Shown here: positions 41,951-42,445 of the stretch, piece after piece
Layout: every line of letters starts with the position of its first letter
Numbering within the stretch: the stretch's first letter is position 1
DNA from: Gemmatimonadetes bacterium 2013_60CM_65_52
GTDB taxonomy: Bacteria > Gemmatimonadota > Gemmatimonadetes > Gemmatimonadales > Gemmatimonadaceae
DNA length: 64,000 nucleotides
Direction: 5' to 3'
NCBI GenBank assembly: GCA_002215645.1
Contig: NGFI01000007.1
Span: 1-64,000, forward strand
Position numbers and translations under genes: made by a program
Notes under the pieces: model-generated
What the model was told of the DNA's origin: nothing
Seen by the model: the letters and a program-made list of their open reading frames with translations, nothing else
The model's database searches: none

Positions 41951-42445
41951 ATGACTGATCCAGTTGCTGACGCGCCTTCCTGCCCACGCTGTGGGGGGGA
42001 GATGTGGGACAATCGCGAGAGCAAGCGAAATCCGCGCGCGCCGGACTTCAAGTGCAAGAACCGCACGTGTGACGGCGCGGTCTGGCCGAAGGATGGCGCA
42101 CGCAATGTGCAGGCGCCGGCGGCCGGAACGGCCGTGGCAGGAGGTCCCGCGGCCGATGCCGACGGCTATCCGCTCTGCCCGATCTGCGGCGGGCCCATGT
42201 GGGACGATCGCGAGAGCAAGCGCAATCCTCGCGCACCGGACTTCAAATGCCGCAACAAGCCGCGCGAGCGCGGAGGTCCTGGGTGCGAGGGTGTGATCTG
42301 GCCGTCGCGCGACGGAACTCCGAGTCCGTATCCGCCGCCACGGCCGCGCCGCGCCGCGTCACCCTCCGCTTCGTCGCGCCCGCCGGTGAACGACGCGCCG
42401 CCACATGAGGCGCCGCCGTTTGACGACGACGACATACCGTTCTGA
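41951..42445 (+). CDS. Double zinc-ribbon protein ending in an SSB-like acidic tail
   Basis: 164 residues. Two near-identical zinc ribbons: the first has Cys11, Cys14, Cys35 and Cys40, the second Cys76, Cys79, Cys100 and Cys112. Each carries the block MWDxRESKRNPRAPDFKC and an invariant 'W-P' end. A Pro/Arg/Ser-rich linker (about 122-152) leads to the C-terminus PPFDDDDIPF. The last six residues (DDDIPF) equal the end of E. coli SSB, which recruits RecQ, PriA, RecO, exonuclease I and others. I infer a DNA-associated protein that engages the same partners or competes with SSB; no OB-fold is present. It is likely monocistronic, with the SDR gene converging nine bases away. Confidence 0.75.
   Translation: MTDPVADAPSCPRCGGEMWDNRESKRNPRAPDFKCKNRTCDGAVWPKDGARNVQAPAAGTAVAGGPAADADGYPLCPICGGPMWDDRESKRNPRAPDFKCRNKPRERGGPGCEGVIWPSRDGTPSPYPPPRPRRAASPSASSRPPVNDAPPHEAPPFDDDDIPF

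Follow-up and report, generated by a model that had tools for sequence, protein, structure and literature searches.

A conserved double zinc-ribbon protein of Gemmatimonadaceae with an SSB-type C-terminal tail, a candidate adaptor in DNA repair

The window, a stretch of 64,000 nucleotides from a Gemmatimonadaceae genome, encodes a small protein with two four-cysteine zinc ribbons, two variable linkers, and an acidic end of the kind found on single-stranded-DNA-binding protein (SSB). The gene and its parts are as follows.

41901..41933, + strand: terminator-like 14-bp hairpin with a T-rich tail, between pmbA and the double-ribbon gene
41951..42445, + strand: double zinc-ribbon gene with SSB-type tail; open frame of 164 aa, ATG start matching orthologues (M[TSP]E.. 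or similar)
41975..42088, + strand: zinc ribbon 1, MWDN type, aa 9-46; short Cys3-Cys4 loop, like Rad52-linked ribbons; dN/dS 0.11
42089..42169, + strand: linker 1, variable, Pro/Ala-rich, aa 47-73; dN/dS 0.54; 63% gap cells
42170..42304, + strand: zinc ribbon 2, MWDD type, aa 74-118; NKPRERGGPGC insertion; dN/dS 0.10
42305..42421, + strand: linker 2, variable, Pro-rich, presumed disordered, aa 119-157; dN/dS 0.37
42422..42442, + strand: SSB-Ct-type tail DDDDIPF, aa 158-164; TGA stop follows immediately; dN/dS 0.09

Translation of the frame and a Pfam scan confirmed the layout of the original prediction, namely, two C4 ribbons, no OB-fold (PF00436), and a DDDDIPF end, with APPFDDDDIPF as the full C terminus. 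The annealing domains PF04098, PF04404, and PF03837 gave 0 matches in the Pfam scan, and what the scan did return was sub-threshold ribbon matches alone (Zn_ribbon_recom, the reverse-gyrase ribbon, and the Top1 C4 ribbon PF01396, the last at 14.6 bits against a curated cut-off of 32). The four-cysteine segments are CPRCGGEMWDNRESKRNPRAPDFKC..C (aa 11-40) in ribbon 1 and CPICGGPMWDDRESKRNPRAPDFKC...C (aa 76-112) in ribbon 2. The ribbons had been described as near-identical, and while both do carry four cysteines, they are not equivalent: in all genera seen, ribbon 1 is the short MWDN form and ribbon 2 is invariably MWDD, with an NKPxxxGGPGC insertion ahead of Cys4.

Gene order within the genus is tldD-pmbA-[double-ribbon gene]-SDR-cupin-DedA, where SDR is a short-chain dehydrogenase, and in other genera the gene lies at different sites. 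Because the pmbA and SDR-cupin-DedA flanks are constant in the genus, we conclude that Gemmatimonadaceae inherit the gene vertically, as part of the chromosome; a prophage origin was rejected for its genus on the same synteny. With tldD-pmbA and the dehydrogenase as neighbors, it shares no operon with repair genes. The strong hairpin upstream ends 17 bases ahead of the start codon, leaving almost no promoter room, and is probably the end of tldD-pmbA transcription. No sigma-70-like promoter was found near the start codon, the upstream stretches of related loci look unrelated, and the gene may need read-through or an unusual promoter. Elsewhere in the window, a long ORF on the minus strand (43675-45078) resembles, from its translation judged by eye, a fusion of a DedA-type membrane domain with a PAP2-type phosphatase.

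Whole-genome searches found orthologues with both ribbons in 9 of the 10 genomes that represent the genus and in other genera of Gemmatimonadaceae; the cultured carriers are Roseisolibacter or Gemmatirosa relatives. Orthologues without the tail had been named beforehand as the refuting test of the original prediction, and all complete orthologues carry it. Specifically, both ribbons and the tail are present in 12 of 12 aligned orthologues, the tail reading D-D-D-D-[IL]-P-F or one acidic-residue change off (one with S, one with G), and a genome scan with near-duplicates removed found the strict SSB-like tail on 11 of 11 complete double-ribbon loci. By pairwise codon counts from eleven orthologues, dN/dS is 0.093 in the seven residues of the tail, 0.111 in ribbon 1, and 0.104 in ribbon 2, as against 0.54 in linker 1 and 0.37 in linker 2. 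Constraint on the tail equals that on the ribbons, despite the fast-changing linker before it, and by these counts both ribbons and tail are under purifying selection.

The tail is shared with SSB. The E. coli SSB tail is given as DDDIPF (PMC5928155), the same as the last six residues of the double-ribbon protein, just as first claimed. The single SSB of the host genome (its sole PF00436 match), encoded at another site, ends in ADEDDDLPF and thereby in the same motif, DEDDDLPF, which upholds the assignment of the tail to the SSB-Ct type. An unbiased genome search was made with the pattern [DE][DE]-x-P-F-stop, with x coded NTN (equal to [DE][DE]x[I/L]PF-stop). In the 4.2-Mb host genome, the pattern occurs at two places, the SSB end and the double-ribbon gene; across ten genomes of the genus it occurs at 21, all translated, comprising 9 SSBs, 8 double-ribbon proteins, and 4 Rad52-type annealing proteins that each carry one copy of the ribbon. 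The reversed pattern, used as a control, occurred at 3 places in the same ten genomes. As read from these translations, the tail is within the genus exclusive to SSB, the double-ribbon protein, and the Rad52-ribbon protein. Because the ribbons and tail are under purifying selection and the tail pattern lies at only two sites in 4.2 Mb, their combination is beyond chance.

Many Gemmatimonadaceae carry the Rad52-ribbon gene within a conserved gene order, lysC-asd-M20 peptidase-[Rad52-ribbon]-...-recN (names from translations). In the host genome (G000:C9:409000-421000, L252), lysC-asd-M20...recN is intact and the Rad52 gene is missing, an apparent clean loss. The Rad52 gene is gone and the double-ribbon gene stays, and thus the stand-alone protein is independent of the Rad52 version; dependence on a Rad52-ribbon paralogue was rejected for this genome.

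A ribbon-only profile was searched against IMG/VR, from which 80 loci were kept, and against a genome set of 84,980 species, which gave 42, all from records titled gemmatimonad save one "unidentified bacterium." When the N-terminal parts were clustered and scanned with Pfam and PHROG, the domains ahead of the C-terminal ribbon included ERF (PF04404, E 1e-25), Rad52/22 (PF04098, 9e-11), RecT (PF03837, 1e-28), and, in some proteins, an AAA_24/Sak4-like ATPase; several unnamed phage families also carry the ribbon. The block of this annealing-protein module, CPxCxGxMWD[ND]R..K..NPKAPD[FYW]KC..C.GVIW, is present in the double-ribbon protein. As the ribbon forms the C-terminal module of many ssDNA-annealing proteins, its setting is recombination and repair. 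The earlier statement that no characterized system has such a layout holds for the papers searched, but the ribbon is no orphan, being C-terminal on phage and chromosomal annealing proteins.

With near-duplicates removed, the strict SSB-like tail was found on 16 of 22 ribbon-ERF and 23 of 28 ribbon-Rad52 proteins. Among ERF proteins, the 16 of 22 with a ribbon compare with 1 of 47 distinct proteins without one (Fisher 6e-10, relatedness uncorrected), and among Rad52 proteins from the same search, 13 of 15 with a ribbon compare with 0 of 10 without (Fisher 2e-5, relatedness uncorrected). Therefore, the tail accompanies the ribbon and not the annealing domain. Some ribbon-bearing phage proteins have no tail, and therefore the ribbon can function without it. 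The pattern suggests that ribbon plus tail is a portable recruiting module on viral and bacterial recombination proteins. In the INPHARED phages, the whole protein gave 0 tblastn matches and the ribbon alone weak, chance-level ones, which limits the known range of the module to Gemmatimonadota and uncultivated viral contigs; among plasmids, the only match was on a Gemmatirosa megaplasmid. Searching with one viral protein's Rad52 domain recovered that protein alone.

Three further observations concern the viral carriers. A prophage-like ERF in a genome of the genus (L131:5331-6210 and L019) has a ribbon of the ribbon-2 type, with the NKPKVKGGPGCEGVIWP insertion; it was the only such ERF seen and suggests exchange between host gene and phage. 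Short viral-contig frames that have one ribbon close to their start and lack an SSB-like tail (L050:5980-6390, L085, L089, L111, and L119) are possible free-standing phage versions. Finally, the annealing-protein ribbon occurs in phage families that lack a functional annotation (L078, L061, L113, and L065; phrog_11717, phrog_10048, and phrog_22961), which suggests that these are recombination proteins too.

Ribbon 1, modeled from 55 sequences, was predicted with confidence (pLDDT 85). The full-length AlphaFold model was poor (pLDDT 55), so disorder of the tail and linkers is only presumed. The best VIA-align match among re-aligned chains was a weak one, to E. coli topoisomerase I residues 706-746 (9gda/4rul, Z 4.1/3.5), with an rmsd of 2.3 over 41 aligned positions at Z 4.1; Foldseek gave 0 matches with E below 1, and a PDB profile search with the ribbon gave nothing significant. 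In topoisomerase I, the ribbons of this region bind ssDNA through pi-stacking by an aromatic residue on strand beta3 (PMC4678816). Among 100 distinct ribbons of the present kind, F, Y, or W lies two residues ahead of Cys3 in 97 and the tryptophan of MWD is kept in 98. The match, though weak, and the conserved aromatics make it likely that these ribbons, those of the double-ribbon protein included, bind ssDNA.

How might such a protein act? We favor, with somewhat better than even confidence, a stand-alone adaptor that binds ssDNA and presents repair proteins of the SSB-binding class with an SSB-Ct mimic. The two topoisomerase-like ribbons would bind ssDNA or a DNA junction, with bases stacking on the conserved aromatic just ahead of Cys3 and perhaps also on the near-invariant tryptophan. 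From the end of a long flexible linker, DDDD[IL]PF, which copies the tip of SSB, would then reach the basic/hydrophobic pockets of enzymes that bind SSB. RecO and PriA are examples, both encoded in the host genome, and the adaptor could mark ssDNA for enzymes of this kind, or pass it to them, alongside SSB. Ribbon plus tail, elsewhere a unit on annealing recombinases of phage and host (Rad52, ERF, and Sak4-like), would here work without an annealing domain. Binding of zinc and of ssDNA, the fit of the tail into SSB-Ct pockets, the effect on repair, and the direction of descent are inferences. Counting against this reading are the weak structural match, the poor full-length model, gene neighbors outside repair, and the ribbon-bearing phage proteins without a tail.

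The tail might instead be an internal regulator. DDDDIPF could fold onto the protein's own basic ribbons, or those of a partner ribbon protein, and compete with DNA, as acidic SSB-type tails can, while recruiting nothing. The charges would allow it, as both ribbons are net basic (+3 and +4) and the last 14 residues carry -5, and the tail mostly co-occurs with the ribbon on unrelated recombinases, as a ribbon-tail pair would. Charge alone, however, would not keep the exact terminal [IL]PF, which SSB uses for protein pockets, and the motif is the tail of the host's own SSB. We consider internal regulation unlikely.

Also improbable, in our estimate, is a tail dedicated to a single partner or to SSB itself rather than to SSB partners in general, through which recombination proteins would be tied to one mediator or to ssDNA coated with SSB. 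Annealing proteins do act on SSB-coated DNA, the annealing gene adjoins an ssb gene in many phages (PMC8093625), and the tail was the part of a phage SSB that was tested for stimulating Sak4 (PMC5928155), but no ssb gene is linked to the double-ribbon locus, and the motif fits the general SSB-Ct consensus with no visible specialization. That the protein is a competitor, perhaps phage-derived, which occupies SSB-Ct pockets and keeps SSB partners off ssDNA as a titrating inhibitor, would fit its lack of a catalytic domain, the identity of its six terminal residues with E. coli SSB-Ct, and the presence of the ribbon on phage proteins, but is very unlikely given vertical inheritance at a fixed housekeeping locus rather than a defense or prophage region and two conserved ribbons that plain titration would not need.

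A broader and more tentative reading has less than even confidence. Besides SSB, Gemmatimonadaceae may have another recruitment hub of the SSB type that lacks an OB-fold, and a ribbon-plus-SSB-Ct module shared by phage and host, on annealing enzymes or alone, may steer the SSB interactome to chosen DNA. The tail is usually seen as an address label that belongs to SSB alone. A conserved carrier other than SSB, together with the restriction of the tail to SSB and two ribbon proteins in ten genomes, would mean that bacteria and phages can deploy the SSB interactome independently of SSB. Moreover, a possible function emerges for a ribbon borne by several phage annealing proteins that are unrelated to one another and belong to a class used in recombineering, and a direct test becomes possible by swapping or deleting seven tail residues.

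Neither the combination of ribbon and SSB-Ct tail without an OB-fold or annealing domain nor its module-like spread across unrelated annealing proteins was found in Pfam, the PDB profile search, or open-licence papers. Those papers also gave no account of the ribbon itself or of annealing proteins with an SSB-like tail, and the words "zinc" and "tail" are absent from a survey of Firmicutes annealing proteins. The parts, nevertheless, are of already known kinds, a C4 ribbon and an SSB-Ct tail. Bacterial SSB (PF00436) likewise has a variable Pro-rich linker that ends in an acidic DDD[IL]PF tip, the host SSB tip being of the same kind, but the double-ribbon protein has two zinc ribbons in place of the OB-fold. 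Tandem C4 ribbons with an aromatic near Cys3 recall the C-terminal ribbons of E. coli topoisomerase I (PF01396) and YrdD, a free-standing ribbon protein for which zinc-dependent ssDNA binding was reported (PMC4678816). Topoisomerase I is an enzyme, however, and the present ribbons have their own conserved block, MWD[ND]R..KRNPKAPD[FYW]KC, and score far below the Top1 Pfam cut-off. The tail of T7 gp4 can replace that of T7 gp2.5. This primase-helicase is a precedent for an acidic, Phe-ending tail on a non-SSB protein, where the tail docks a replication partner (PMC12230644), but gp4 is a helicase of unrelated sequence from one phage system. Also close are the phage ERF, Rad52/22, and Sak4-like proteins with a C-terminal ribbon, in which the ribbon block is shared and, usually, the SSB-like tail as well; those proteins have an annealing domain, whereas the double-ribbon protein has none and carries two ribbons.
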